Source: Bacteroidota bacterium
GTDB lineage: Bacteria; Bacteroidota; Bacteroidia; B-17B0; Aurantibacillaceae
Reading direction: 5' to 3'
NCBI GenBank assembly: GCA_021156365.1
Contig: JAJNDK010000002.1
Coordinates: forward strand, 434,001 to 498,000
Length of the DNA: 64,000 nucleotides
The position numbers and the translations under genes were made by a program. The notes below the pieces were generated by a model, which was not told where the DNA came from, did not search any database, and saw only the letters and a program-made list of their open reading frames with translations. Position 1 is the stretch's first letter, and each line of letters opens with the position of its first letter. Of the stretch, positions 41,265-64,000 are shown piece after piece.

Positions 41265-42311
41265 TCAGATACTTGGAGTATGTTTTTTGTAAAGATAAGA
41301 GTTGGCATTTATAAAGCGCAGAGAGATCTCGAACCCACCACGTCCGTTGCTGGCGGTTTTCAGGCCCGACAGGTTGATGTCATAACTAAGTCCTACCGCA
41401 AACTGCGAAACCTTGTACAAAGCGCTTGCGATCATCGCATCCTTGTTCCGGTAATAAGCGCCCACTGCAAAAGAGGAGCCCTGTACATAACCGGTGTATT
41501 TCGAATCGCCTTTGAACCGGAACTGGAACATAGTACCTGCGAGCAATTCCTGTGAAGGTCCCTGCATCCAATACACAACGCCGGGAACCAATGATACATC
41601 ACTGTTCGCAAGGCCTATCTCTGCATCCATGTACAGGGTGGTTTTCATGAACAATTTTTCTCCTGTGTCATAAAAAGAATACACGGGCCGGTTGATGTGC
41701 GCAAAGGAAATACCTGCATTAAAATTCCGGTGATCATTTCCTGTCAGGTATTTCTCCGTCTTTTTAAATCCATACTGGATGCCTGCTCCAATATCAGGAC
41801 TCATCCGGCTGTTGGATGAAACAGGCTCTCCAGAAGGCAGTGCCGAATTGTATGCCGTACCATCATACTGGTTCATCCATTGGATATTCGAAGTACTGAT
41901 GCTTCGTTGCATCAGCCCCGCAGTGAGGCCAGCACCGAGAATATTTTTATCATCGAGACGGATCTGGTAAGCATAGCAAAGATTCGCCTGAAATGTTTTG
42001 AGTGGCGAAAAACCTGTTTTATCCTGGTTGATATTTATTCCAAGGCCGGAAAATCCGCTTTTGGAGCCTTCTCCCAATCGCATGTCCCAGGAGACATTCG
42101 CTGTGGAATACGGATTGGCCACACTACTCCATTGGTTGCGGTAATTTACAAGTCCCTGCATGCTGTGTCTTGCACCTGCCTCCGCAGGATTGAGCAATAA
42201 GGGTGTCATGTGGAACTGCGAAAAATGCACATCCTGTGAGCGGGCCGGAAGAACGGCAAGCAAACAGACCACTATCGTAAAAACATTCTTATACTTCATC
42301 TTTAATTTCAT
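41265..42311 (-). CDS. PorP/SprF family type IX secretion membrane protein, second copy
   Basis: A 348-residue outer-membrane protein. The signal peptide (about 1-25, PARSQ) is followed by the family hallmark DVHFSQFHMTPLLLNPAEAGA and MQGLVNYRNQWSSVANPY, then beta strands ending SLRFINANSYLYKKHTPSI. It follows a gliding-motility-type (type B) T9SS substrate gene by 34 bp, and precedes a PD40/OmpA gene by 3 bp. In Flavobacterium SprF is needed for secretion of the type B adhesin SprB, so a role in handling the product of the upstream gene is the favoured reading. Confidence 0.93.
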   Translation of the reverse strand: MKLKMKYKNVFTIVVCLLAVLPARSQDVHFSQFHMTPLLLNPAEAGARHSMQGLVNYRNQWSSVANPYSTANVSWDMRLGEGSKSGFSGLGININQDKTGFSPLKTFQANLCYAYQIRLDDKNILGAGLTAGLMQRSISTSNIQWMNQYDGTAYNSALPSGEPVSSNSRMSPDIGAGIQYGFKKTEKYLTGNDHRNFNAGISFAHINRPVYSFYDTGEKLFMKTTLYMDAEIGLANSDVSLVPGVVYWMQGPSQELLAGTMFQFRFKGDSKYTGYVQGSSFAVGAYYRNKDAMIASALYKVSQFAVGLSYDINLSGLKTASNGRGGFEISLRFINANSYLYKKHTPSI

Positions 42312-42345
42312 ATGTCGTTGGAATAATTTGATCGTTCAATAGTTT

Positions 42346-44286
42346 TTAGCGTACAAGGCTGATGTTTCCTTTTTGATCTATTTCATCTCCATTGCTGAGT
42401 GTGGCTTTCAGGTAATACACAAAAATACCACTGTCCATTAGCTTCCCTTTATAGATCCCATCCCAGCAAAATTGCTGATCGCTTGTTTCAAAGACCTTTT
42501 CTCCCCAGCGGTCGTAAATAGCGAATTGCAGGCTTTCGATGCAATTGCCCATGATGCATTCGAGCTCATTCTCTCCGTCATTGTTCGGAGAGAAACCGGT
42601 CGGCACAAAAATATCCCCGCAGGTGATCTCCACGGTGATGTTCACCACATCCATAGCTATACAACCATTATTATCCGTTCCGCTTACAGAGTAGGTAACC
42701 GTTCCAATGCCCGTTGAAGTTGCAACAGGGTTTGAAATCGTAGTTGAAGAAAGCCCTGTCGCCGGTGTCCAGGTATATGTGTTCACGCTTCCTGTTGCAT
42801 TCAGCTGTGTGCTGCTTCCCGGAGACATGGTGACATCCGGCCCTGCATTAATGGAAGGGCTTACCACAATAATGCTTTTTACGATCGTATCGGAAGAAGC
42901 TCCGTTGGAAACGACCAGCTGCACGGTATGCGTTCCTGCTGATGAATAACAAATACCTGAAGGATTCTGGGCCGTACTTGAAGCTGTACCCGCTCCCGCA
43001 AAAGTCCAGGTCCATGAAGTAACAGCGCCGGAGCTCAGATCTGTAAAATTAATACAGCTTCCACTGCAGATAGTGGTATCGCTGCTTTGAAAATTTGCAT
43101 TCGCCGCACAGGGCACATTTGGAAAAGCCGGATTAAAATAACTCTGGATAAAAGCCGGTAAACCTAACAGGCACATATTACCCATTCCGCCCGGATCTAT
43201 GTTAATGGCATCGTCTACAAAATTACAGGCCGTTCCTGCGAGGTTCGGCGAGTTGATCACGCAGAGAAAAGGACTGTTCGCTTTGGATATATAGATCTTC
43301 CCATCCGGTCCCAATTGCAGCGCGCGGAAAATAGGAAGCGTCATGGAAACACCGAGCGATGTCATGGATGCCTGAATATTGGCTGCACTCAAATCAAACT
43401 GATCGACATAGCTATTCCCTCCGTTTATTCCTGTCTGATCATAATACGAAGCATACAGTTTTGTATTATCCGAAGAGAATTCTACACCATATGCTTTCTG
43501 GTGATTGTTCAACGAAAGAACAAGTGGATTGGAAACCACGCCTGTTGTTTTATCAAAATCGAAGAGATCTACAAAAGCTTTGCCCTGGTAACTTGCAGGA
43601 ATAGGATTGATTACGGTGTCGCGTATGCAGGCGATCTGTGTTCCATCCGTATTGAATTTCATTTGCCCGTGCACATCTTCCTGAACAGGCCCCACCGTGC
43701 TGATCACAGGAGGATTGATCCCGCTGGCAGTAACCAGGTAAGCAGCAAACACTTTTGAATTGAAGTCATGCATCATTACCCATATATCCGTCCCGTTGCA
43801 ATGAAATACGGCTGTCAGTTTCTCCGTCACATTATTTCTCAAAAAAGTATTCTTCGTAGTTACATCGCCGTTCCCACTGTTCAGGGTCATATCTACGATG
43901 GAATACCGGAAACCATTCGGGCCTCCTTCATCATCCAGTGTAAAAATATAATAAAGAGTGGAGCTGCCGGGTCCCGGAATGATCATTGCAGACTGTGTGG
44001 TGGAAATGTCACCGAATAATCCGGTACCATTCGGCATTACCGCATTATTCTTATCCCAAACAGTTAAGCCATCGGTATAGAAAAGTAAATTTCCCGAAGC
44101 ATCTGAGATGGATGCGCTGCCTTCCGCCGTGTTAATGACACTGTTGTTCAATACGACAGGGGCCCCGCTGTTAAAGTCAAGGCCTGCCAGTGTACCAAAG
44201 TGCCAGAAGTTTGCCTGCTTTTGCGAAAACACAGATCCCGTACACATAATTAAAAAAAGCGTGGTGCGAATGAATGATCGTATCAT
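42346..44286 (-). CDS. Secreted protein with PKD domain and gliding-motility-type (type B) sorting domain
   Basis: A 646-residue protein with signal peptide (about 1-21). Residues about 22-395 form a beta-propeller-like domain that begins KQANFWHFGTLAGLDFNSG and is nearly the same as that in the next gene upstream. A PKD module follows (SCINFTDLSSGAVTSWTWTFAGAG), then an Ig-like module (TWTPATGLSSTT), then a C-terminal type B domain: CGDIFVPTGFSPNNDGENE, AIYDRWGEKVFETSD, WDGIYKGKLMDSGIFVYYLKA, KGNISLVR. Type B domains need a PorP/SprF partner, and one is encoded next in the operon. Likely a surface adhesin or sensor. Confidence 0.9.
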   Translation of the reverse strand: MIRSFIRTTLFLIMCTGSVFSQKQANFWHFGTLAGLDFNSGAPVVLNNSVINTAEGSASISDASGNLLFYTDGLTVWDKNNAVMPNGTGLFGDISTTQSAMIIPGPGSSTLYYIFTLDDEGGPNGFRYSIVDMTLNSGNGDVTTKNTFLRNNVTEKLTAVFHCNGTDIWVMMHDFNSKVFAAYLVTASGINPPVISTVGPVQEDVHGQMKFNTDGTQIACIRDTVINPIPASYQGKAFVDLFDFDKTTGVVSNPLVLSLNNHQKAYGVEFSSDNTKLYASYYDQTGINGGNSYVDQFDLSAANIQASMTSLGVSMTLPIFRALQLGPDGKIYISKANSPFLCVINSPNLAGTACNFVDDAINIDPGGMGNMCLLGLPAFIQSYFNPAFPNVPCAANANFQSSDTTICSGSCINFTDLSSGAVTSWTWTFAGAGTASSTAQNPSGICYSSAGTHTVQLVVSNGASSDTIVKSIIVVSPSINAGPDVTMSPGSSTQLNATGSVNTYTWTPATGLSSTTISNPVATSTGIGTVTYSVSGTDNNGCIAMDVVNITVEITCGDIFVPTGFSPNNDGENELECIMGNCIESLQFAIYDRWGEKVFETSDQQFCWDGIYKGKLMDSGIFVYYLKATLSNGDEIDQKGNISLVR

Positions 44287-50919: not shown

Positions 50920-51229
50920 ACAAAGTACAGCTGTATCTATAGTTTACTTTGGATCACAAAAAATTTACACTGCATCCGTATTTCGTCAACTTACCTAATC
51001 ATTAGAATACTTTCCGTCATTTTTATTAATGTTAGATTAATCTGCATTTAATCGTCCCGCAATCTTCGTTCACTAATTTAGCACCACTAAAATTGTTTGT
51101 CCCGGCTACCCGGATAAGGCAATTATAGAGGAGTGACCACCCTACAGAACTATTTGATTCCTTTCATTGTGTTCAGAACCACTTCATCTGCAAACAGCAG
51201 AAATTTTTTTAAACAAAAAATTAGTGGTC
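50920..51229. other. Non-coding gap upstream of the giant type B protein
   Basis: About 310 bp of AT-rich DNA. A weak promoter-like box TAATTTAG lies at 51074-51081, without a good TTTG partner. The leader holds a doubled CCCGG (51101-51112). No gene or RNA is recognised. Confidence 0.4.
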
Positions 51230-54200
51230 ATGGTACATTTAGTTCAAAAACGATCGGCATTTTACACATACGTAGTAGCAACAGGTATCTGTTTCCTGTT
51301 CTGTATTGAAAAATACCGCGCACAGGTAACACTTGCCTTCCAGGGCGGAGAAGTGGGAAACACCTGGACATACACTTCTTCCGGTGCGAATGCCGAAGCG
51401 ATAACAGAATCCACATCTCCCTCCAATATTGTAAGTGGTGCTGCTTCTCTTGTTGCAGGCGGGAATGCAGGTGGGGGAAGTTGTTTTGCCGGGGGAAGCG
51501 GAAACGGAAGCGCTACGGCAAAATCATTTACATTCAGTGCGGTTAATATAAGTACTTCCAATTCTTCAGTACGTACACTGAAATTTAACTGGGGCAACCG
51601 ACTGCCTGCCTGCAACGGCACAGGATGGGACTCGGGAGAAAATCTCTCGTTCACCGCCTATCACGATGGTGTTTCCCAGGGAGCCGTATCACTGGCTACG
51701 GGGAGCAACAATGCTGTTTTCGCGATACAGGGCAATCAATACACCTGGTCCATTCCTGCCTGTGTGAATAGTTTTTATTTTATGGTAAGTGTTACTACCA
51801 ACAGGCGTGATGAGTTCCTGTTTTTGGATAATGTGCAGCTTACTGCGCCGGCCCTGAATCCCGCCTTATTACAACCTTCTGCCATAAATGGTAACACAGC
51901 GCCCTGTCCCGGAACTTCCGGTACTTATAGTGTAACACAGGTGACAAGTGTAAAATATACATGGAGCGGTTTACCCGCCGGTGCATCTTTTACAGGCACC
52001 AACGGAACTATCAACTCCTGGTCGATGGGTATCAATTGGGGAAGCGCAGCGCCCGGCACCTACACACTGAGCGTAACGCCTTCTGATTTTTGCAACACCA
52101 CCTCCGGTCCTGCACAAACACTCGTGGTAACGATCCCGAACATAGCACCGCTTGTTCTTACAGGTAATCTGTCTTTCTGCGCAGGCGATTCACTGCTGCT
52201 CAGCTCCAGTTATGTGAGTGGTAATACCTGGTCGACGGGAGAAAGCAATGATACTATATATGTACATGCTGCGGGAACTTATAGCGTTTCTGTTACCACC
52301 GTATGCGGTACACAAAATGCTTCCCAAACCATAACGATCAATCCTGATCCTGTAGCAGGTATCACTGCAGACGGCCCGCTTATTTTCTGCGAAAGGGATT
52401 CTGTTGTCCTCAGCTCTTCTGCAGGTACAGGTAATGTATGGTCAACTGGTGAAGCAGGTTCTTCCATCACTGCAGATACATCCGGTATTTATTCGCTGGT
52501 GGTCAGCAACAGCTGCGGAAGTGATTCGACGAGCGTTACGGTGCAGGTTATTCCCGGAAACATCACGGCACTTATTTCCACCGGCGGACCGCTCAATCTT
52601 TGTCCCGGTGATTCAGTTACACTTAGCTCCAATATTGCTACAGGCAACAGCTGGTCTACCGGCGATACCACACAATCCATCACCGTTCATACTGCCGGCA
52701 CCTATACACTCACTGTCAGTAACGGATGTACGAGTGATGCAACAACACAAACCATTCTTTCCACACCGGCACCGGCATCCATTATCAGTGCAAGTGGCCC
52801 TACTACATTCTGTGATGGAAATACGATCACACTAAGCTCTGCTTCGGCTACGGGCAACCTCTGGTCGACAGGTGATACGAATGCATCCATCCAGGTAGAT
52901 AGCAGCGGCATATATTCGCTGATCGTAAGCAATATTTGTGGAAGCGATTCTTCAGCGATTTCCATTACCGTTATTACTTCCAGCATACAGGCGCTTATCA
53001 GTACAAGCGGATCACTGAATCTTTGTCCGGGTGATTCGGTTACACTTAGTTCCAACTTTCCGACCGGGAATACCTGGTCGAACGGTGATACTACACAATC
53101 TATTGTTGTACACAGTGCAGGCACTTATACACTCAGTGTGAATACTTCCTGTGCGAGTGATACGGAAACACAGCTCGTAACCTCTACTCCACTTCCCATC
53201 TCTGTTATTACGCCCGGCGGGCCTACTACATTCTGCGATGGAAATACGCTGACACTAAGCTCTGCTGCGGCCATAGGTAACCTTTGGTCAACTGGTGATA
53301 CCAACACATCCATCCAGGTGGACACCAGCGGCACCTATTCACTGATCGTAAGCAATGCATGCGGCAGCGATTCTTCAGCTATTTCCGTAACGGTGATCCC
53401 TTCCGTTATCCAGGCTTCTATCAGTACAAACGGTCCGCTTGATCTTTGTCCCGGCGATTCGGTAACGCTCAGCTCCAATCTCCTTACAGGGAACAGCTGG
53501 TCTACCGGTGATACCACACAATCCATCACAGTACACAATGCCGGCTCCTATGTACTTGCCGTTAGCAATACATGTGCAACAGATACAGAAACACAGCTTG
53601 TTACTTCTACCCCTCTTCCTTCTTCTGTTATCAGTGCAGGTGGTCCCCTGACTTTTTGCCAGGGCAATTCGGTTACACTGAGCTCTGCTGCTTCATCCGG
53701 AAACCTATGGTCTACGGGAGCTTCCGGCAATTCGATCGTAGCCGACAGCAGCGGCATTTATTCTCTTAGTGTAAGTAATGCATGCGGCAGTGATTCTTCT
53801 GCGGTGACCGTAACAGTAATTCCTGATACGATCACGGCAACAATCAGCGCCAGCGGTCCGCTTTCACTTTGCCCGGGTAACTCGGTAATACTTACTTCCT
53901 CCTACACTACAGGAAATCTATGGTCCACCGGAGCAAGCACACAATCCATCTCTGTGAACAGTCCGGGAACGTACACGTTAACGGTAAGTACAAGCTGTGC
54001 CGCGGACAGCACCACACAGATTGTTACATCCAATCCTGCAACAAGCGCTGTTATCAGTGCAAATGGTCCCACTACCTTTTGTCAGGGAAATTCGGTTACA
54101 CTGAGCTCTGCTTCCACAAGCGGGAACGTATGGTCCACCGGTGAAACAACTTCCTCCATCACCGTGAATACTGCAGGAACGTATACACTCACCGTGAATG

Positions 54201-55183
54201 GCATTTGCGGATCAGCCACCGATACGGAGGTAATTACAGTGAACCCATTACCAACCGTGAATTTGACCCCTTCCGGAAATGTGACGATCTGTGCAGGCAC
54301 TTCTGTGTCGCTCACGGCCAGCGGCGGAAGTAATTACCTTTGGTCAAACGGCGCCACAGGCAATGCCGTTTCCATTAACACAGCCGGTACCTACAATGTG
54401 GTTTCTACCAACAGCTGCGGCAGCATCACTTCGGCATCGGTTGTTGTAAGCCTCATTAATTTACCGTCCATTGCCGTTTCTGCAGGCGGAACTATTTGTC
54501 AAGGCGATTCTTTGTTGCTGACGGCTTCGGGTGGCGGACCTTATCATTGGAATACCGGTTCCACAAGTGCATCGGTGTATGCCACACATGCAGGGAACTA
54601 TACGGTTAGCAGCACCAATAGTTGCGGAACAGTTTCAGCAACAGCAAATATGACCGTTTCAAATGTGGATGCTCATTTCATTGCCGATACACTTTCCGGC
54701 GTTTATCCGTTGGAAGTACATTTCACGAATACGAGTTCTACGGGAGCTCCGTATACATGGACTTTCGGCGACGGAAGCAGCAGCACTTCCACATCTCCCA
54801 CACATACATTCGGGAGCAGCGGCACGTATACCGTTACGCTTGGTGTAAGCAACAGCAATGGCTGCACAGACAGTTATACAATAACGATCGTGGTATCGGA
54901 ACCACCTTCCCTGCTGGAGATCCCCAACATCTTTACACCCAATGGCGATGATGTGAACGATCTCTTCATTGTAAGATATGAAAACCTCAACGACTTTCAC
55001 ATGGACATCTTCGACCGCTGGGGTTTAAAAACAGCCTCCATTAATAATGCCGCCAAAGGATGGGATGGAAAAACACAGGGTGGAAATGATGCTCCGGATG
55101 GTGTGTATTTCTATATCATCACCGCTACCGGCAACGACCAGAAAGCTTACGAACAAAGCGGCTATGTGAGACTAAACCGATAA
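51230..55183 (+). CDS. Giant secreted repeat protein with gliding-motility-type (type B) sorting domain
   Basis: About 1317 residues from ATG at 51230 (MVHLVQKRSAFYTYVVATGICFLF); the frame opens 21 codons earlier at 51167 but without a better signal. After the signal (to about residue 30) is a beta domain (about 35-205), then an Ig-like region. Residues about 305-1010 are ten modules of 70-71 residues in five A-B pairs: A has LCPGDSVTLSSN...TGN.WSTGDTTQSI.VH.AGTYTL, B has FC.GN..TLSSA...GNLWSTG...SI..D.SG.YSL.VSN.CGSDSS. Two more modules, a PKD domain (FTNTSSTGAPYTWTFGDGSS) and a type B domain (IPNIFTPNGDDVNDLF, FDRWGLK, KGWDGKTQGG, YVRLNR) follow. Probably a gliding or adhesion surface filament. 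Confidence 0.92.
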   Translation: MVHLVQKRSAFYTYVVATGICFLFCIEKYRAQVTLAFQGGEVGNTWTYTSSGANAEAITESTSPSNIVSGAASLVAGGNAGGGSCFAGGSGNGSATAKSFTFSAVNISTSNSSVRTLKFNWGNRLPACNGTGWDSGENLSFTAYHDGVSQGAVSLATGSNNAVFAIQGNQYTWSIPACVNSFYFMVSVTTNRRDEFLFLDNVQLTAPALNPALLQPSAINGNTAPCPGTSGTYSVTQVTSVKYTWSGLPAGASFTGTNGTINSWSMGINWGSAAPGTYTLSVTPSDFCNTTSGPAQTLVVTIPNIAPLVLTGNLSFCAGDSLLLSSSYVSGNTWSTGESNDTIYVHAAGTYSVSVTTVCGTQNASQTITINPDPVAGITADGPLIFCERDSVVLSSSAGTGNVWSTGEAGSSITADTSGIYSLVVSNSCGSDSTSVTVQVIPGNITALISTGGPLNLCPGDSVTLSSNIATGNSWSTGDTTQSITVHTAGTYTLTVSNGCTSDATTQTILSTPAPASIISASGPTTFCDGNTITLSSASATGNLWSTGDTNASIQVDSSGIYSLIVSNICGSDSSAISITVITSSIQALISTSGSLNLCPGDSVTLSSNFPTGNTWSNGDTTQSIVVHSAGTYTLSVNTSCASDTETQLVTSTPLPISVITPGGPTTFCDGNTLTLSSAAAIGNLWSTGDTNTSIQVDTSGTYSLIVSNACGSDSSAISVTVIPSVIQASISTNGPLDLCPGDSVTLSSNLLTGNSWSTGDTTQSITVHNAGSYVLAVSNTCATDTETQLVTSTPLPSSVISAGGPLTFCQGNSVTLSSAASSGNLWSTGASGNSIVADSSGIYSLSVSNACGSDSSAVTVTVIPDTITATISASGPLSLCPGNSVILTSSYTTGNLWSTGASTQSISVNSPGTYTLTVSTSCAADSTTQIVTSNPATSAVISANGPTTFCQGNSVTLSSASTSGNVWSTGETTSSITVNTAGTYTLTVNGICGSATDTEVITVNPLPTVNLTPSGNVTICAGTSVSLTASGGSNYLWSNGATGNAVSINTAGTYNVVSTNSCGSITSASVVVSLINLPSIAVSAGGTICQGDSLLLTASGGGPYHWNTGSTSASVYATHAGNYTVSSTNSCGTVSATANMTVSNVDAHFIADTLSGVYPLEVHFTNTSSTGAPYTWTFGDGSSSTSTSPTHTFGSSGTYTVTLGVSNSNGCTDSYTITIVVSEPPSLLEIPNIFTPNGDDVNDLFIVRYENLNDFHMDIFDRWGLKTASINNAAKGWDGKTQGGNDAPDGVYFYIITATGNDQKAYEQSGYVRLNR
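52145..54259 (+). repeat. Five 423-bp higher-order coding repeats (A-B dimers)
   Basis: Equivalent codons (start of the motif A-L-I-S-T or its variant) fall at 52145, 52568, 52991, 53414 and 53837, each exactly 423 bp apart. Each unit holds two related modules of 70 and 71 codons (cysteine to cysteine 210 and 213 bp). The sequence has diverged, yet no indel has been kept, which points to a fixed structural length. Confidence 0.9.
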
Positions 55184-55226: not shown

Positions 55227-58200
55227 ATGAGAACAAATCAATTACAAAAAAAACCGATGCAGACTATAAGCCGGGGACTTACGCTCCTGGCCTGTATGTT
55301 CGTGCTTTTTTCAGGAACACTTTTTTCACAGGCCTACACCATTACCTGGCAGGGTTTGACGGGCAACGTTAACGCCCAGAACGTACCTACGGGTATTACT
55401 GTTACACAACAATATAACGGAGTAACACCGGCCTGTAACACCGCTTCAAACGGGGCTACGACCAGTTATACTTTACGGCTTACAGCAGCGCCGGGTTATA
55501 ATTTCACGATCACTTCCATCGGGGGAGCTGCCTATGCAAGCAGCGCCGGATCGAAACAATTTACATTTCAGCTATTGAACGGCTCAACGTATGTACAACC
55601 GAATCCTACTACAATTGGTACTTCTTCCAGTTGCGGAGGCAACACTGCGCTCAATGCATTTGCCATACCTGCAGCCGGCCAAACAGTAACAAGCGGTAAC
55701 CAGATCATCGTTACCGTACTGAGAGCTCCGGGTGGGGCGAGTGGCGGCGGTTACAGCTGGACACGCTCACTGACCGTATCAGGTGTTGTTACTGCTGTCA
55801 GCAGCTGTACCGCACCTACCGGGTTAGCAGCTTCCGCTATTACCAGCAGCGGCGCTAACTTGAGCTGGGGCACTGTAGGCGGAGCCGGTGGTTACCAGTA
55901 TGTGGTAGACCAGACTTCCGGATCACCTGCAGGAGCGGGAACGCCGATTGTCGGAACTTCTTTCACCGCAGGCAGCTTATCAGGCAGCACTACTTATTAC
56001 CTGCATGTGCGTTCAGATTGCGGAAGCGGAAATTTCTCTTCCTGGACCACCATTCCTTTCACTACGCTTGCTACCTGCAATGCGCCGACAGGACTTACTG
56101 CAACCAATATTACGGATAACAGCGCCGATCTGAGCTGGAATACAGTAGGCGGTGCCGGTAGTTATGAATACATTGTGGATCAAACCAGCGCTGCTCCTGC
56201 AACAGCCGGAACAAATACAGTTGGTACTACTTACGCTGCATCCGGATTGAATTTTAATACTACCTATTACCTGCATGTGCGTTCGGATTGCGGAAGTGGA
56301 AACTTCTCCCCATGGACCACTATTCTTTTCACTACGCTGTTTCCTCCATGTGCAGATCCTACGGGCCTTGTAGCAACAAATATTACCGACAACAGCGCTA
56401 CACTGAGCTGGAATCCGGGAACAAGTGTAAGCGGATATGAATATGTAGTGGATCAGACGGCTACTGCACCAATAGTGTCAGGAACTGTAACTGTAGATAC
56501 GTTCTATAACGCAATGGGACTTACATTTAATACCACTTATTATCTGCATGTACGTAATAACTGCGTGGCAGGTAACTCTTCCGGCTGGATAACGATCTCT
56601 TTCACAACACCGTATCCGCCATGCGCAGATCCTTCAGGCATTGTGGTTACAAATCTTACGGACAACAGTGCAACGATCAGCTGGGATTCCATTATCAATG
56701 CAGCCGGATTCGAATACGTGCTTGATCAGATCGCCACCGATCCGATGAGCGCAGGAACTGCAACGGCAGACACTTTCTTCAATGCAACGGGCCTTGCTTA
56801 CAATACACTGTATTATGCACACATACTTACAAATTGTATGGCGGGCAATGCTTCCGGTTGGGTTACTATTTCTTTCACCACACCTTATCCTCCATGTGCA
56901 GCTCCTTCAGGACTTGTTGCAACAGGTATTACCGACAACAGCGCAACTCTCAGCTGGGACTCTATTCCGGGTAATACCGGTTTTGAATATGTGATCGATC
57001 AGCTTGCTACCGACCCGATGACTCCCGGAACTGCAACTGTGGATACTTTCTACAACGCGTCAGGCCTTTTATTCAACACTACTTATTATTTGCATGTGCG
57101 CAGCAATTGTGTCGCCGGCAATTCCTCCGGCTGGACAAGTATTCCTTTCACGACACCATTTCCACCATGTGCCGATCCTTCAGGGATGGTGGTTACCAAC
57201 CTGAACGACAACAGTGGAACGATCAGCTGGGATTCCATCATCAATGCAGCCGGATTCGAATATGTACTTGATCAGATCGCTACCGATCCGATGACGGCCG
57301 GAACTGCAACTGCAGATACGTTCTTCAACGCAACAGGTCTTGCTTTCAACACTACATACTATGTACACGTGCTTACGAATTGTATGGCCGGTAATGCTTC
57401 CAACTGGACCACCATTTCTTTCACCACGCCTTATCCGCCTTGCACAGATCCTTCGGGACTTGTAGCAACAGGTATTACTGACAACAGTGCAACCTTAATC
57501 TGGGATTCTATTCCGGGTAATATCGGTTTTGAATATATGATCGATCAGCTTGCTACCGATCCAATGACTGCAGGAACCGCAACTGTGGACACGTTCTATA
57601 ATGCGAGCGGTCTTGCATTCAACACTACTTATTATTTACATGTGCGCAACAATTGTGTTGCCGGCAATTCTTCCGGCTGGACAACGATTCCTTTCACTAC
57701 TCCTTATCCCGCATGTGTCGATCCTTCAGGCCTGATCGTAAACACGCTGAGCTCGAACGGTGCTATACTTAGCTGGGATGTAATAGCTTCCGCGGCAGGA
57801 TACGAATATGTTATCGACCAGTTGATCACAGATCCAAGCGGAACAGGAACTGCCACTGTGGATACATTTGCAACAGTCGGTGGTTTGCTTTTCAATGCTA
57901 CCTATTATTTACACGTAAGAACGAATTGCACGGCAGGGAACTCTTCCGGCTGGACAACTATTTCTTTCACAACTCCTTACCCGCTATGTGCAGATCCTAC
58001 AGGCCTTACTGCTGCCAATATCACAGACAGCGGTGCAGACCTTAGCTGGAACACCGGCAGTGGAATAACAGGATATGAATATGTGCTGGACCAGGTAGCC
58101 ACAGATCCTGCAGGAGCCGGAACACCAAGTCTCCTCCCGGCTTACACAGCTTCTGCTCTTACCGCCAATACCATATATTATTTCCACGTACGCACCAACT

Positions 58201-58787
58201 GCACGGCAGGAAACTCTTCCGGCTGGACAACTATTTCCTTCACTACTGCTCTTACCCCTTGCGGTGATCCTACAGGAATCAACGTTACCAACATCAGCAA
58301 TACAGGCGCAGATATCAGCTGGAATATGATCGCCGGATCTTTGGGTTATGAATATGTGATCGATCAGCTGCCAACGGATCCTGCTACTGCGGGAACAGCA
58401 ACTACAAGTGTTACTGTAACAGCATCCGGTTTAACAGCGAATACACAATACTATGTTCATGTGCGGAACAATTGCGGTCCTAATTTTTCTTCCTGGATAA
58501 CTGTTCCTTTCACGACAACCAACACGATCGGTATTGCAACTACAGATCTCAGCACCGCTGTTATCCGTGTTTATCCGAACCCGGTAAGCAATATACTGAC
58601 AATTGACCTTGGAGAGACAGTAAAAGGTACACTTCAGGTTATCAACGTGGAAGGCCGCATACTTCGCTCCCTGGAGAATGAGAACAGGGAAATGAATATA
58701 GACCTTACAGACCTGGAAACGGGCATCTATTTTATACGTTATACTTCTTCCGGTTCCAGCACCATGCTGCGGATCGTAAAACAATAG
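55227..58787 (+). CDS. Giant secreted protein of ten fibronectin type III-like repeats with T9SS type A sorting domain
   Basis: A 1186-residue protein. A signal peptide (about 17-36, LLACMFVLFSGTLFSQ) is followed by a beta domain (about 37-190). Ten repeats follow, each like C..P.GL..TNITDNSA.LSWN......YEYV.DQ....P...GT.....Y.A.GL.FNTTYYLHVR.NC..GN.SGWTTI.FTT. They fill residues about 194-1100. The C-terminus is a type A domain (IRVYPNPVSNILTIDLGE, ending MLRIVKQ). It lies 43 bp downstream of the type B giant, same strand, so the two are likely one transcript. A start at the second ATG (55257) is also possible. A strong terminator follows. Confidence 0.92.
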   Translation: MRTNQLQKKPMQTISRGLTLLACMFVLFSGTLFSQAYTITWQGLTGNVNAQNVPTGITVTQQYNGVTPACNTASNGATTSYTLRLTAAPGYNFTITSIGGAAYASSAGSKQFTFQLLNGSTYVQPNPTTIGTSSSCGGNTALNAFAIPAAGQTVTSGNQIIVTVLRAPGGASGGGYSWTRSLTVSGVVTAVSSCTAPTGLAASAITSSGANLSWGTVGGAGGYQYVVDQTSGSPAGAGTPIVGTSFTAGSLSGSTTYYLHVRSDCGSGNFSSWTTIPFTTLATCNAPTGLTATNITDNSADLSWNTVGGAGSYEYIVDQTSAAPATAGTNTVGTTYAASGLNFNTTYYLHVRSDCGSGNFSPWTTILFTTLFPPCADPTGLVATNITDNSATLSWNPGTSVSGYEYVVDQTATAPIVSGTVTVDTFYNAMGLTFNTTYYLHVRNNCVAGNSSGWITISFTTPYPPCADPSGIVVTNLTDNSATISWDSIINAAGFEYVLDQIATDPMSAGTATADTFFNATGLAYNTLYYAHILTNCMAGNASGWVTISFTTPYPPCAAPSGLVATGITDNSATLSWDSIPGNTGFEYVIDQLATDPMTPGTATVDTFYNASGLLFNTTYYLHVRSNCVAGNSSGWTSIPFTTPFPPCADPSGMVVTNLNDNSGTISWDSIINAAGFEYVLDQIATDPMTAGTATADTFFNATGLAFNTTYYVHVLTNCMAGNASNWTTISFTTPYPPCTDPSGLVATGITDNSATLIWDSIPGNIGFEYMIDQLATDPMTAGTATVDTFYNASGLAFNTTYYLHVRNNCVAGNSSGWTTIPFTTPYPACVDPSGLIVNTLSSNGAILSWDVIASAAGYEYVIDQLITDPSGTGTATVDTFATVGGLLFNATYYLHVRTNCTAGNSSGWTTISFTTPYPLCADPTGLTAANITDSGADLSWNTGSGITGYEYVLDQVATDPAGAGTPSLLPAYTASALTANTIYYFHVRTNCTAGNSSGWTTISFTTALTPCGDPTGINVTNISNTGADISWNMIAGSLGYEYVIDQLPTDPATAGTATTSVTVTASGLTANTQYYVHVRNNCGPNFSSWITVPFTTTNTIGIATTDLSTAVIRVYPNPVSNILTIDLGETVKGTLQVINVEGRILRSLENENREMNIDLTDLETGIYFIRYTSSGSSTMLRIVKQ
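55806..58532 (+). repeat. Ten fibronectin-like coding repeats with an exact 273-bp period
   Basis: The leading cysteine codons are at 55806, 56076, 56349, 56622, 56895, 57168, 57441, 57714, 57987 and 58260: one interval of 270 bp and eight of exactly 273 bp. Repeats 4 and 6, and 5 and 7, are the most alike, so a two-repeat block (546 bp) was duplicated. The tenth unit ends before the type A domain. Confidence 0.9.
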
Positions 58788-58939: not shown

Positions 58940-59836
58940 TTATGAAGAAAAATTATTTGAACTCAGTTTATAATTTGCCACGAACTTTTCTAAGAATTCT
59001 TTGCTCTCACATACAACTCCTTTATCAGAAGCTTTAAAGAACGCTACATTGTATTCTTGAACATTATCTTCTGTTAACTGAATTACAACGTTCGGCTTCT
59101 TCTCTCTAACCTTAGTTGACATACAAAACAGCGCTACCTTGCTATTAATTGGGAATGTAATTGAAGCGATAGAACTACCGCCACTTGTACAAATCTCTCC
59201 ATTAATGACAATGTCTTTTAATAGATTTTCTCGAAGTGAAATAGACGTGCAATCTGGCAACAAAAAATATTCCCCTTTTGGGGCCAATAGTATTGCATAC
59301 ATAATATCACCCATTAGTTCTATTACGCCATCAACAACTTTATCAAAATCAACAGGGGATTTGCTTTTAACTACAGACACCATTTGCTCATGTACTTCCA
59401 GGCTTTTCTTTATTTCTTCTGAAGCGCCATCAGTTACTTGCTTAAATGCTCCCATTATATACTCATGTCGTTCTTTTTGATCCTTCGGAGTCCTCATTTC
59501 ACCAATAAGCCCGATGCGCATTAAATACTTAACAGAGTTGAGAATATTCAAGGGTTGTTTTGTTTGGACAGTATTAAGAGTGTCCATGATGATATCATAG
59601 TGCTCTTTAAAATCTGTTTCAAAGTTTTGGTTAAGATTAATTTCAACTGTTCCATGATCTATTGTTCCATCTTCAAGCACAATAGAATTAAGGTCTTTTT
59701 CTGAAAACAAACTTTTGGTTGTACTCTTTTCTTGAATTCTTCCCGAGGATTTATGATATAAAAACATGGAACCATTTCGCATGAAATTCCTACTTAGTAC
59801 TTGCGAAACATAATGATGATTTCTTGGTATGCTCAT
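58940..59836 (-). CDS. DUF4238-like protein
   Basis: A 298-residue cytosolic protein. The N-terminal MSIPRNHHYVSQVLSRNFMRNG, with a central HHYVSQ...NF, is the hallmark of DUF4238 proteins, followed by a helical middle (KYLMRIGLIGEMRTPKDQKERHEYIM) and FLLPDCTSISLRENL, where the family usually has a conserved D-x-P or D-C-like loop. Function is unknown; relatives are scattered between strains and often lie near mobile or defence genes (recall, not checked). The gene is visibly AT-richer than its neighbours and sits alone between two secreted-adhesin genes, each closed by its own terminator, so transfer is likely. Confidence 0.75.
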   Translation of the reverse strand: MSIPRNHHYVSQVLSRNFMRNGSMFLYHKSSGRIQEKSTTKSLFSEKDLNSIVLEDGTIDHGTVEINLNQNFETDFKEHYDIIMDTLNTVQTKQPLNILNSVKYLMRIGLIGEMRTPKDQKERHEYIMGAFKQVTDGASEEIKKSLEVHEQMVSVVKSKSPVDFDKVVDGVIELMGDIMYAILLAPKGEYFLLPDCTSISLRENLLKDIVINGEICTSGGSSIASITFPINSKVALFCMSTKVREKKPNVVIQLTEDNVQEYNVAFFKASDKGVVCESKEFLEKFVANYKLSSNNFSS

Positions 59837-60027: not shown

Positions 60028-63000
60028 TTACTCCTGTTTCAGTATTTTCTTAGAGACCCTTGTTTTGCCATTGGTCAGCATTACATAGTATACTCCGTTG
60101 CTCCACTCTTTCAGATCCAGCTCCATTGTTGAGCTTTGTGGTGTAGATGAATAAACCTTTTCTCCTAATGCATTGTAGATCTCGAGGAGAGCCGCGCCGT
60201 TTTCAACACCGGTAACAGCGATCGAAAGATTCGTGTTGAACGGGTTCGGATACGCTACCAGGTCCATTTCGTTTTCGATGGTTGGTTCTGCTTCTGTCGC
60301 AATCAAACGTGCTGTTGCACTCGTATTGATGGTGAAGCTGCAGCTGGTTCCGAATGTTCCCCAGTTGCCTCCTACTTTTGCACGAACACGAACAGTATAT
60401 GTTTGTCCGTTTTGCAAACCTGTAACAGAAGGTCGTGGCAATGAGCTGATCCCTGATCCTCTCTGAAGCGTGAAGTTATAGGATGTACCTGTGAATTCCC
60501 ATTCGTAATCCTGCGCTCCGTTGAGTGCATCGCAATAGAAGAAACCACTCAGGTTGAAGGTGGCTCCGCAGAGATCGTTCCTGAGCTTCGTGGTAGGGAA
60601 TGCTCCTGTTGTCACCGTACAGGTATTACCGAAGCTGCCCCACACGCCTGCCACTTTCGCACGGATACGTACATTGTAGGTTTGTGCATACTGAAGGCCG
60701 GTGATATCCGCACGCAGCATGGACGTATTACCTGATCCTCTTTGTTTTGTGAAAGAATATCCGAGGCCGCTGTTGGTGAATTCCCATTCATAATCCTGTG
60801 CGCCGTCGATCACCGTTGTATAGAAATAACCGCTGAAGTCAGCAATGGTCTGACCACAATATGCAGCCGTCAGTTGCGGAGTCGGTGTGCCAATGCTGAT
60901 CGCGCAGGTGTTCCCGAAATTGCCCCAGATACCACCTACTTTTGCACGGATGCGCACATTATATGTTTGCCCGAATTGCAGGCCGGTGATATTAGTACGT
61001 GGAATGGAAGTGACTGCCTGGTTGCGGGTGGTAGTGAATGAATAACCCAAACCGCTGTTGGTGAATTCCCATTCGTAATCCTGCGCACCGTCGATCACCG
61101 AGCTATAGAACCAACCGTTCAGATCCGGAACCGTTTGACCGCATTGTGCGGCGCTAAGCTGTGGAACCGGTGTAGCTATCGTAACAGTACAAGAGGTGCT
61201 GAATACTCCCCAGGTGCTGCCAATTTTTGCACGTACGCGAATATCATACGTCTGCCCGAATTGCATTCCCGGAAAGGATGTTTTGTTGATCGCGTGCGAA
61301 GAATTGCCGCGCTGTACAGTTACCGAATAACCCAATGTGGAGTTGGTGATCTCCCATTCGTAGTCAACTGCATTTGCTACTGCATTGCAATAGAAAGAGC
61401 CACTCAGGTCGGGCAGGGTTTGTCCGCACTGTGAAGCCCAGAGCTGTGTAGGTGGTATGGAGCAGCTCGTGGTAACAGCAGTTACTTTTTGAGTTGTACA
61501 ACCTTTGCTATCGGTTACAGTAGCTGTGTAGCTTCCGATAGAAAGACCGCTGATGTTTTGTGTAGTGGCTCCGTTGCTCCAGCTATATAGGTAAGTCGGA
61601 GTTCCACCGGATACACTCAGGCTTATAGCTCCGTTGTTATTACTGCATCCTGACTGTGTCATATTGCTGTTTACGGTAAGCGTGCCCGGTTGTGATATCG
61701 TTACGCTGTGTGTGGCTATACATCCATTCGCATCCGTAACCGTGCAGGTATATACACCTGCTGAAAGGTTTGTTGCTGTTCCTGTTGATCCGCCGGATGG
61801 AGCCCATGAGAATAAGTATCCTGCCGTTCCGCCGCTTACCGAGATACCGGCTGCTCCGTCGCTACCGCCATTACAGCTTACATCCGTAGAAGAAGCAAGA
61901 GATGCCATAAGCGCTGATGCAGGCTCTGTGATGGTTACACTTTGTGTAGTGATGCACCCGTTCGCGTCGGTGATCGTGCAGGTATACGTTCCGGCCGTAA
62001 GTGATGCTCCTGTTGCAGCTGATCCTCCCGATGGAGCCCATGCATACATATATGTTGGAGTGCCGCCGGTAAGGTCTACTGTTGCAGCTCCGTCATTTGC
62101 CCCGTTGCAGTTTACATTCGTTTGTGAAGAAACAGAAGCTGTAAGCACTGATGGTTGAGTAATATTCACTGCCTGCATAGTGGTACATCCATTCGCATCC
62201 GTGATGGTACAGGTGTAATCACCGGTAGCTAATCCGCTTGCTGTTGCGGCAGTTCCGCCTGACGGGGCCCATAAATATATATAAGTTGGTGTGCCACCTG
62301 CAGGGCTTACCGTTGCAGATCCGTCGCTTAGCCCGTTGCAGCTTACGTTCGTTTGAGAAGAAACAGAAGCCGAAAGCACAGATGGCTCGGTAATGCTTAC
62401 TGATTGCATAGTGGTACATCCATTTGCATCCGTGATGGTGCAGGTGTATGTGCCTGCTGTTAATCCGCTTTCTGTAGCCGTAGTTCCTCCTGATGGAGCC
62501 CACGAATACATATAAGTAGGTGTACCGCCTGTAACGCTTACCGTTGCGGATCCGTCGCTTAGCCCATTACAGCTTATGTTCGTTTGTGAAGAAACAGATG
62601 TGCCAAGCGCCATGGCAGGCTGAGCGATAGTAACGGTTTGTGTGGTCACACATCCGTTCGCATCTGTAACCGTGCAGGTATAGGTACCGGCCGTCAATGA
62701 TGAGGCTGTTGCAGCTGTTCCGCCTGATGGAGCCCAGCTATATGTATATATTGGAGTTCCGCCTGTTGCCAGTATTGTTGCAGCGCCATTGTTCCCACCA
62801 TTACAGCTTACGGCTGTTTGTGAAGAAACGGAAGTGCCCAATGCCATAACAGGCTGAGTGATAGTAACAGTTTGAGTAGCCGAGCATCCTCCTGCTATGT
62901 TCACTACTGTGCAGGTATACGTTCCGGTAGCGAGACTGCTGGCTGTTGCTGCTGTTCCGCCTGACGGAGCCCAGCTGTATGTGTAGCCGGGACCACCTGT

Positions 63001-64000
63001 TGCGCTAACCGTTGCAGTTCCATTCGTACCGCCAAAGCAGCTTACATTGGTTTGCGCCAAAATGCTTGTAACCGGGGTAACACATTGCTGTACATCAAGT
63101 GATAATATCACATCGTCTATACGCCACACAACGGTTCCCGATTGAGCTCCTGATCCTCCGTATCCGTAAACCCTGTATGTAATTGCCGTTCCCGTAGCTG
63201 AATAAACTGTGGAAAACGAATTTGTTTTTAAGGACCAGGCGCTGTTTGTTGCAATAGAACCGGTGGCTATATTGGTAGTATAATTGTCCTTGCTGGAGCG
63301 TAATGCATAAGTAGTCGGGCCTGTTCCTGTAGAGCGGGTACCAAAGCTTAACTCATCCAGGGATACATAATATCCTGCAGCAGGAGTAAGTGTAAACTGA
63401 AAATAAGTACTGCCCGATACGGAAAGTGATGCGCCATTAACCGTTGAAGCGCCTGCATTATTCCCACCGGAAACGTCTGTGAATCCTGAAGAAGGAGAAG
63501 TCGCAGAAATCATAGCCGGAGATCCGTTGCTGTTGACTACAGTCATATTGGAAACTGTAAGATTAGCTACAGGTGTTCCCGAGGATGGTGCGGCTGTTGC
63601 AAAATCCCAGGTAACAGGACTTACTGTAATCGTGATAGATCCGCTGGTTGCATTGCTAAGTGAGCCCGAGCTTGCCTGAAGCGTATAGCTGCCTCCCTGA
63701 TCAAGCGATAAGGTACTGAAGGTAGCTACACCTGCAACGACTGCTACAGTAGTAGTTCCGGATAAGGTTCCCGGGCCGCTTGCTTTGGAAACAGTAACAT
63801 TGCCTGTATAATTCACATCTACCGAATTATCCGCTCTTCTTGCCTCTACGGTAAATGCAGTCAGAACACCTCCGGCAGTGCCGGAAGAAGGAACTCCCAC
63901 AAACGTAAGATGATCGGCAACTCCCAATACCGTAAATGAAGAAGAAGTTCCTGCCGTAAGATTATCACCCGAAGTGCGGGTAGCAGTAAGTGTTGCACCG
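60028..64000 (-). CDS. Giant secreted protein with SprB repeats and T9SS type A sorting domain (N-terminus beyond the window)
   Basis: The frame is open to the right edge; the apparent start at 63927 is a TTG inside the sequence FTVLGVADHL, so the real start lies outside. The visible part has more than 1320 residues. It begins with Ig-like beta domains (TAGGVLTAFTVEARRADNSVDV), a domain with VTWDFATAAPSSG and FGTRSTG, then seven SprB repeats of about 77 residues (VSCNG..DG.ATV...GGTP.Y.YSWAPSGGTAAT...L.AGTYTCT.TDANGC), four 95-residue modules (YEWEFTNSGLGYSFT, GLQ.GQTY.VRVRAKVGG.WG.FG..C) and a type A sorting domain (VAYPNPFNTNLSIAV, ending VSKKILKQE). A surface adhesin is the likely role. 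Confidence 0.92.
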   Translation of the reverse strand, partial: GATLTATRTSGDNLTAGTSSSFTVLGVADHLTFVGVPSSGTAGGVLTAFTVEARRADNSVDVNYTGNVTVSKASGPGTLSGTTTVAVVAGVATFSTLSLDQGGSYTLQASSGSLSNATSGSITITVSPVTWDFATAAPSSGTPVANLTVSNMTVVNSNGSPAMISATSPSSGFTDVSGGNNAGASTVNGASLSVSGSTYFQFTLTPAAGYYVSLDELSFGTRSTGTGPTTYALRSSKDNYTTNIATGSIATNSAWSLKTNSFSTVYSATGTAITYRVYGYGGSGAQSGTVVWRIDDVILSLDVQQCVTPVTSILAQTNVSCFGGTNGTATVSATGGPGYTYSWAPSGGTAATASSLATGTYTCTVVNIAGGCSATQTVTITQPVMALGTSVSSQTAVSCNGGNNGAATILATGGTPIYTYSWAPSGGTAATASSLTAGTYTCTVTDANGCVTTQTVTIAQPAMALGTSVSSQTNISCNGLSDGSATVSVTGGTPTYMYSWAPSGGTTATESGLTAGTYTCTITDANGCTTMQSVSITEPSVLSASVSSQTNVSCNGLSDGSATVSPAGGTPTYIYLWAPSGGTAATASGLATGDYTCTITDANGCTTMQAVNITQPSVLTASVSSQTNVNCNGANDGAATVDLTGGTPTYMYAWAPSGGSAATGASLTAGTYTCTITDANGCITTQSVTITEPASALMASLASSTDVSCNGGSDGAAGISVSGGTAGYLFSWAPSGGSTGTATNLSAGVYTCTVTDANGCIATHSVTISQPGTLTVNSNMTQSGCSNNNGAISLSVSGGTPTYLYSWSNGATTQNISGLSIGSYTATVTDSKGCTTQKVTAVTTSCSIPPTQLWASQCGQTLPDLSGSFYCNAVANAVDYEWEITNSTLGYSVTVQRGNSSHAINKTSFPGMQFGQTYDIRVRAKIGSTWGVFSTSCTVTIATPVPQLSAAQCGQTVPDLNGWFYSSVIDGAQDYEWEFTNSGLGYSFTTTRNQAVTSIPRTNITGLQFGQTYNVRIRAKVGGIWGNFGNTCAISIGTPTPQLTAAYCGQTIADFSGYFYTTVIDGAQDYEWEFTNSGLGYSFTKQRGSGNTSMLRADITGLQYAQTYNVRIRAKVAGVWGSFGNTCTVTTGAFPTTKLRNDLCGATFNLSGFFYCDALNGAQDYEWEFTGTSYNFTLQRGSGISSLPRPSVTGLQNGQTYTVRVRAKVGGNWGTFGTSCSFTINTSATARLIATEAEPTIENEMDLVAYPNPFNTNLSIAVTGVENGAALLEIYNALGEKVYSSTPQSSTMELDLKEWSNGVYYVMLTNGKTRVSKKILKQE
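60498..61635 (-). repeat. Four 285-bp coding repeats
   Basis: The codons for the conserved Y-E-W-E core recur at 60498, 60783, 61068 and 61353, exactly 285 bp (95 codons) apart. They lie directly before the C-terminal T9SS domain of the SprB-repeat protein. Confidence 0.88.
61450..63060 (-). repeat. Seven SprB coding repeats
   Basis: The codons for P-S-G-G (gatgg/gacgg landmark) recur at 61796, 62030, 62261, 62492, 62726 and 62963: intervals 234, 231, 231, 234 and 237 bp (77-79 codons). A seventh, more divergent unit (SWSNGATTQ) lies nearest to the C-terminal part. In contrast to the other arrays the length varies slightly. Confidence 0.85.

Follow-up and report, generated by a model that had tools for sequence, protein, structure and literature searches.

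An anciently duplicated two-module immunoglobulin-like array with putative inter-module disulfides in a predicted exported rod protein of a Bacteroidota bacterium

Gene and domain organization of the rod protein

Here, we analysed a stretch of 64,000 nucleotides from a Bacteroidota bacterium of the family Aurantibacillaceae (assembly GCA_021156365.1, contig JAJNDK010000002.1, positions 434,001 to 498,000), hereafter called the window, and focused on one gene that encodes a repetitive rod protein built of small immunoglobulin (Ig)-like modules. Its open reading frame (ORF) occupies 51167-55183 on the forward strand and encodes 1338 residues when counted from TTG 51167. The ATG at 51230 is the likelier start, because a hydrophobic, signal-peptide-like stretch (judged by eye only) comes after it. 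The domains are arranged as an N-terminal domain, a stalk of Ig-like modules that would hold it off the cell, a PKD domain and a sorting domain (Table 1). From these features we infer that the protein is exported by the type IX secretion system (T9SS) and has an adhesive role.

The N-terminal domain had no match in Pfam or NCBIfam, and when 86 other genomes of the host's family were searched with the region 51230-52123, only 4 matched, weakly and over part of the region. No ortholog of the head of the protein was found among these 86 genomes, and hence no strain was available for a comparison of copy number. An AlphaFold model of this orphan domain from the single sequence was unusable (predicted local distance difference test, pLDDT, 31).

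Table 1. Features of the rod-protein gene; positions are those of the window.
Feature	Position	Strand	Basis or remark
Rod-protein gene	51230..55183	+	opens at TTG 51167; ATG 51230 before hydrophobic signal-peptide-like stretch
N-terminal domain, three cysteines (boundaries approximate)	51326..51868	+	without recognised relatives
M01, Ig/PKD-like domain (boundaries approximate)	51869..52123	+	one Cys in A' region and one in FG region; from sequence and cysteine list
M02, first rod module, fits neither A nor B	52124..52333	+	sequence comparison, tree
M03, type B	52334..52546	+	sequence comparison, tree
M04, type A	52547..52756	+	sequence comparison, tree
M05, type B	52757..52969	+	sequence comparison, tree
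M06, type A	52970..53179	+	sequence comparison, tree; part of structure model
M07, type B	53180..53392	+	sequence comparison, tree; part of structure model
M08, type A	53393..53602	+	sequence comparison, tree; part of structure model
M09, type B	53603..53815	+	sequence comparison, tree; part of structure model
M10, type A	53816..54025	+	sequence comparison, tree
M11, type B	54026..54235	+	sequence comparison, tree
M12, neither type	54236..54442	+	sequence comparison, tree
M13, neither type	54443..54649	+	sequence, cysteine list; A' Cys proposed to pair with the PKD cysteine
PKD domain, lone cysteine in FG region (codon 54863-54865)	54719..54889	+	PF18911 50.0 bits (cut-off 27)
T9SS type B C-terminal sorting domain	54917..55177	+	PF13585 76.9 bits (cut-off 27); TIGR04131 49.5 bits (cut-off 35)

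Repeat period and module types

The first-pass annotation, made from the sequence alone, had described five A-B dimers that repeat every 423 bp. The period and the equal spacing stood. Twelve modules (M02-M13) were recognised, whose conserved Trp residues are spaced by 70, 71, 70, 71, 70, 71, 70, 71, 70, 70 and 69 residues, so that the A-to-A and B-to-B steps are 423 bp within all five claimed dimers, and the step after the last dimer is 420 bp. Two families of direct repeats in the DNA, D1 and D2, have start-to-start distances of 423, 423 and 423, and Tandem Repeats Finder reported a period of 423 at 52585-53691 (score 1143). Compared with shuffled module orders, identity between modules two steps apart showed an excess of 11.9 points (p 0.0015, 2000 shuffles).

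On the other hand, the first of the five dimers does not begin with a type A module. Type A comprises M04, M06, M08 and M10 and type B comprises M03, M05, M07, M09 and M11, while M02 is similarly identical to both (39-43% to A modules, 34-39% to B modules), lies on a long branch in the tree and is therefore not assignable. The array also runs past the end first given for it, with M12 and M13 (54236-54649), which are of neither type. Both motifs proposed as marks of the types held in part: that of the A modules, LCPGDSVTLSSN, is exact in three of five (M04, M06 and M08) and does not occur in the other modules claimed as type A, and that of the B modules, FC.GN..TLSSA, is found in four of five (M05, M07, M09 and M11) but not in M03.

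Evolutionary history of the array

Expansion by dimers, also suggested previously, was borne out by the trees, as was the separation of A and B that a tree of single modules had been expected to reveal. Of the bootstrap trees, 99% for protein and 98% for DNA placed A and B modules on separate sides, although branch support for the A/B split itself was moderate (89/84 and 72/99). A wider tree, covering 138 modules of 13 arrays, has few columns and many open forks; in it, the A modules of the window cluster together, and so do its B modules except for one outside row among them. These groupings indicate that the A-B pair multiplied inside the rod gene.

The closest copies lie in the centre of the array (M05/M07 79%, M04/M06/M08 70-73% identical at the protein level). 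For 9 of the 11 same-type pairs, the Nei-Gojobori (NG86) method gave an estimate (nonsynonymous distance, dN, 0.14-0.43; synonymous distance, dS, 1.02-2.24; dN/dS 0.10-0.28), and the other 2 were saturated. Synonymous sites are thus near saturation and the array is old: one A-B pair was duplicated in tandem again and again at an early time to form the stalk, and purifying selection has acted on it since. That the spacing remained exact despite divergence is as expected from this selection acting on a compact fold. Same-type tandem repeats in a surface protein could also belong to a length-varying "Periscope" stalk, in which near-identical DNA copies recombine and the length of the rod differs between strains. 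However, the best long repeat pair in the DNA is only 79% identical (300 nt) and the best module pair 76%, dS is 1 or more, and the 86 genomes of the family offered no strain with an orthologous head for comparison, so that we regard such a stalk as very improbable here.

How common dimers are was assessed in 48 arrays of at least 7 modules with a spacing of 60-95, namely that of the window and 47 from fetched loci chosen as best matches. The best period exceeded 1 in 10 of them (p<0.01 each, uncorrected for the periods tried): it was 2 in the window, L072 and L064, 3 in L073, L065, L070, L011 and L010, and 5 in L008 and L088. The spacing in sister arrays ranges from 67 to 81. Thus, dimers are not special and the duplication unit varies between genes; the dimer repeat, although real, is nothing unusual in this protein family.

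One alternative is that selection maintains the A/B alternation since unlike neighbours misfold less, in which case a dimer would lengthen the rod while keeping neighbours under about 50% identical. A rule of under 50% identity between neighbours in large multidomain proteins is cited in PMC8201768, and in M03-M11 neighbours are 40-50% identical and next-but-one modules 51-80%. Across the 48 arrays, however, neighbours were less alike than modules 2-3 apart in 30, with a median difference of 0.7 points (Wilcoxon p 0.058), and mean neighbour identity exceeded 50% in 9. We consider this explanation unlikely, and given the p value we do not claim such selection across the arrays.

Fold and lengths of modules and joints

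An AlphaFold model of four modules (M06-M09, A-B-A-B), computed with 73 aligned segments, had a mean pLDDT of 97.1 and a predicted template modelling score of 0.75. The alignment retained 73 of 88 segments; the 15 removed by hand mostly had irregular spacing or were extra segments of included arrays. The modules are Ig-like, and the top 7 Foldseek matches of the model were fragments of grappling hook protein A (GhpA), with E-values from 8.8e-15 to 4.4e-12; the eight best rows in VIA were also GhpA entries (Z 11.2-12.0). Since the root-mean-square deviation over several modules was 6.6-9.5 Angstrom in Foldseek, the modules match GhpA, but the bend between modules does not necessarily do so. A profile of the 73 four-module segments matched the GhpA sequence (reported E 0, 20 stretches), and a direct comparison of the repeat-region sequence with solved structures yielded a single match (E 0.22). 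The regular rod that had been proposed for these modules, with the modelling of one dimer suggested as a check, is supported by the model and by its nearest solved folds, which are Ig-rod fragments.

In all 12 modules, the cysteine in the A' region (A' Cys) and the Trp are 17 residues apart, and the Trp and the cysteine in the FG region (FG Cys) are 25 residues apart. The joint, counted from one FG Cys to the A' Cys that follows, measures 28 residues for A to B and 29 for B to A in turn; after M11 and M12 it measures 28 and 27, respectively. The dimer array L072 resembles the window in that bodies are constant and the joint alternates between 23 and 25, whereas the trimer array L070 shows the opposite, with a joint nearly constant at 25 and a body that alternates between 27 and 29. 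We also considered that the joint is generally tighter than the body, and ruled this out, as the median within-run spreads over 124 runs (0.49 for A' Cys to Trp, 0.98 for Trp to FG Cys and 0.62 for the joint) do not show it.

The constant bodies, the difference of one residue between A-to-B and B-to-A joints and the range of spacing in sister arrays together imply that the length rule is a property of the fold and the joint, and not of the dimers. The strict rule on length that had been proposed alongside dimer expansion was therefore supported only in part: it is correct for the bodies, also those of modules outside the dimers, but is not specific to dimers, and the regularity of the window array stems from the Ig fold and its joint. 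A further possibility is that the A-B dimer is a functional unit, for example with one ligand site or one superhelix turn per pair. In its favour, the end regions 1-20 and 58-70 contain 11 of the 13 columns that fully separate A from B (hypergeometric p 0.003), the joint length alternates, and two other arrays, L268 and L088, keep or lose a cysteine pair at alternate joints. Sister arrays with periods of 1, 2, 3 and 5 are nevertheless what accidents of duplication would give, and a functional dimer appears unlikely to us.

Putative disulfides between neighbouring modules

Taking the above together with the cysteines, we propose that the protein is a surface rod exported by T9SS, grown by an old A-B duplication, in which every joint would be closed by a disulfide between modules (probability about 0.78). 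The bond would join the A'/B-turn cysteine at the far pole of module n to the FG-turn cysteine at the near pole of module n+1, and such staples would continue from M01 via M13 as far as the PKD domain. With a covalent link at each joint, the rod could withstand bending, unfolding and proteolysis, a putative mechanical role.

The first line of evidence is the position of the cysteines. In the model, C15 lies just past the A' strand and before strand B, and C57 lies between strands F and G, so that the classical Ig disulfide between strands B and F was not found. The A'/B turn and the FG turn are at opposite poles of the Ig fold. This makes a bond within one module unlikely, and C15 could plausibly bond to C57 of the next module. 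The count of cysteines points the same way: of the 30 past the signal-like stretch, 3 are in the N-terminal domain, 26 in M01-M13 and 1 in the PKD domain. Pairing between modules accommodates all 30, while pairing within modules leaves the PKD cysteine alone.

The second line comes from joint losses of cysteines in related arrays. The counts by run were limited to runs of at least 3 modules with a spacing of 62-95 and to modules with cysteine zones wholly inside the ORF, and any ORF with a 40-residue word in common with a longer one was dropped. In a first set (894 interior modules), the odds ratio (OR) for joint loss was 75 for the next module and 4.4 for the own module. In a second set (216 runs, 1676 modules), A' Cys of module n and FG Cys of module n+1 were both missing 9 times in 5 runs (p 0.0005, within-run shuffles), and the own-module pair gave p 0.94. 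A third set, enlarged by loci sought with L088 (261 runs, 1953 modules), contained 21 such double losses in 7 runs, compared with a mean of 9.46 and a maximum of 16 in 3000 within-run shuffles (p 0.0003). Backward double losses numbered 13 in 4 runs (p 0.17). Seven runs combine A' losses outside the last module with FG losses outside the first, and in all of them every such loss was matched in the forward direction, 21 with 21; where the previous and next modules differ, the A' loss goes with the next module, 7 to 0. The clearest case is L268, in which 10 A' and 10 FG losses over 23 modules are matched even past a change of phase at modules 8-10.

It might instead be that each module bonds its own two cysteines, as ordinary Ig domains do, and that no staples between modules exist. 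Both cysteines are indeed present in almost all modules (among 1431 interior modules, A' Cys is missing in 29 and FG Cys in 17), and own-module joint loss reached p 0.04-0.05 in a reduced set. However, own-module double losses in the third set were 3 against a shuffle mean of 10.96 (p 1.0), and where the own and next FG Cys differ, the A' loss goes with the next module, 20 to 0. Together with the opposite poles of the two cysteines and the lone FG cysteine of PKD domains after arrays, these data make an own-module bond improbable and suggest that each module is stapled to its neighbour rather than to itself.

The ends of the arrays offer a third line of evidence. In last modules, A' Cys is missing in 30 of 216 and FG Cys in 10 of 216 (p 0.0013); for the 261 runs, the counts are 39 and 11. 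PKD domains that follow a run have an FG cysteine in 22 of 22 cases and lack an A' cysteine of their own in 19 of 22, and a second count gave 35/35 and 25/35, respectively. L268 and L088 carry a cysteine in the tail just past the last module, and none was seen in the printed stretch ahead of the first.

Several points weigh against stapling between modules. The proposal is drawn from sequence statistics and from the topology of the fold rather than from coordinates. In the 261-run set, 26 losses are unmatched (19 A' losses with FG Cys of the next module present and 7 the reverse), all of them in runs without a second kind of loss. Five of the 7 informative runs (L268, L088, L069, L246 and L203) are related (39-55% identical), and L268 and L246 were retrieved with L088, which already showed the pattern, as query. 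Before these L088-seeded loci were added, and without L088, L069 and L032, the OR was 17.4 (p 0.009) between modules and 4.4 (p 0.04) within modules. Moreover, strictly alternating stretches cannot separate forward from backward pairing and only phase breaks decide, the second module of L074 is a doubtful member of the family, and first modules lose FG Cys barely more often than A' Cys (16 versus 11 of 216, p 0.43; 20 versus 11 of 261). The PKD test is weak taken alone, since 28 of 32 PKD domains with no recognised neighbour carry the FG cysteine as well; because the neighbour, where recognised, has A' Cys in 35/35, the corresponding two-by-two table degenerates and the lone-cysteine count alone carries information.

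If staples do link neighbours, they would account for the lone cysteine in PKD domains after arrays, for the regularity of the window modules and for the stiffness of long thin rods outside the cell. Extending this proposal, we lean towards the view that Ig-like rods of this family across Bacteroidota are ladders locked by disulfides at every joint into the PKD domain, with L268 and L088 stapled at only every second joint. Should this be true for L268 and L088, rigid and free joints would alternate there, and the dimer repeat would be there by mechanical design rather than by accident. As an observation, L268 (whole) and L088 (7062-9410) are Ig arrays of period 2 in which alternate joints are without both cysteines of the proposed staple.

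Neighbouring genes in the window

Other repetitive exported proteins are encoded nearby. The next gene behind the rod gene (55227-58787, +) is a second protein of this kind, with fn3 repeats of 273-bp period and a T9SS type A tail. At 60028-63999 (-), a protein combines SprB repeats with a T9SS type A tail; two cysteines of its repeats, one close to the start and the other in a DANGC-like turn, may form the same arrangement of staples. Between these two genes lies that of a DUF4238 protein (58940-59836, -). Upstream of the rod gene, we found an exported protein that has both SprB repeats and a tandem repeat of 153 bp (21177-24107, +), as well as a PorP/SprF-like gene adjoining a CHU_C/PKD protein (41265-44286, -; match 41313-42239). 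The genome has 24 PorP/SprF matches, 2 of them in the window.

Comparison with known systems

The window protein shares its C-terminal domain (CHU_C / TIGR04131) with T9SS type B cargo, above both curated cut-offs, whereas its gene has no adjacent PorP/SprF carrier gene, the nearest in the window being about 9 kb upstream. The titin I-band Ig tandem 3b43, from a eukaryotic muscle protein, is an Ig rod like that of the window (VIA Z 9.9), and to our knowledge it has no joint disulfides.

Periscope proteins, as described in PMC8201768, are likewise bacterial surface proteins with a repetitive rod; their near-identical DNA repeats differ from the old and diverged copies found here. Domain-repeat proteins in general expand by several domains at once, according to PMC1553488, and like the window array they have multi-module periods and their most similar copies in the centre. 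That survey stresses eukaryotes, and the window array adds a joint of alternating length and cysteines at the joints. The disulfides treated in PMC12635249 are the periplasmic ones of SprF, GldK and PorG, not those of rod joints.

The closest relative with solved structures is GhpA from Aureispira sp. CCB-QB1 (Protein Data Bank entries 9flp, 9fls, 9flu-9fly and 9g8b). GhpA is much longer (5898 residues versus about 1317), and N-terminal similarity was not seen in the sequence comparison. On the other hand, the two proteins have a family of Ig-like modules in common, their C-terminal sorting regions are related, and both conserved cysteines of the window modules are visible in the profile alignment with GhpA. 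The stapled joint is newly proposed here, and published work on GhpA may show it already.

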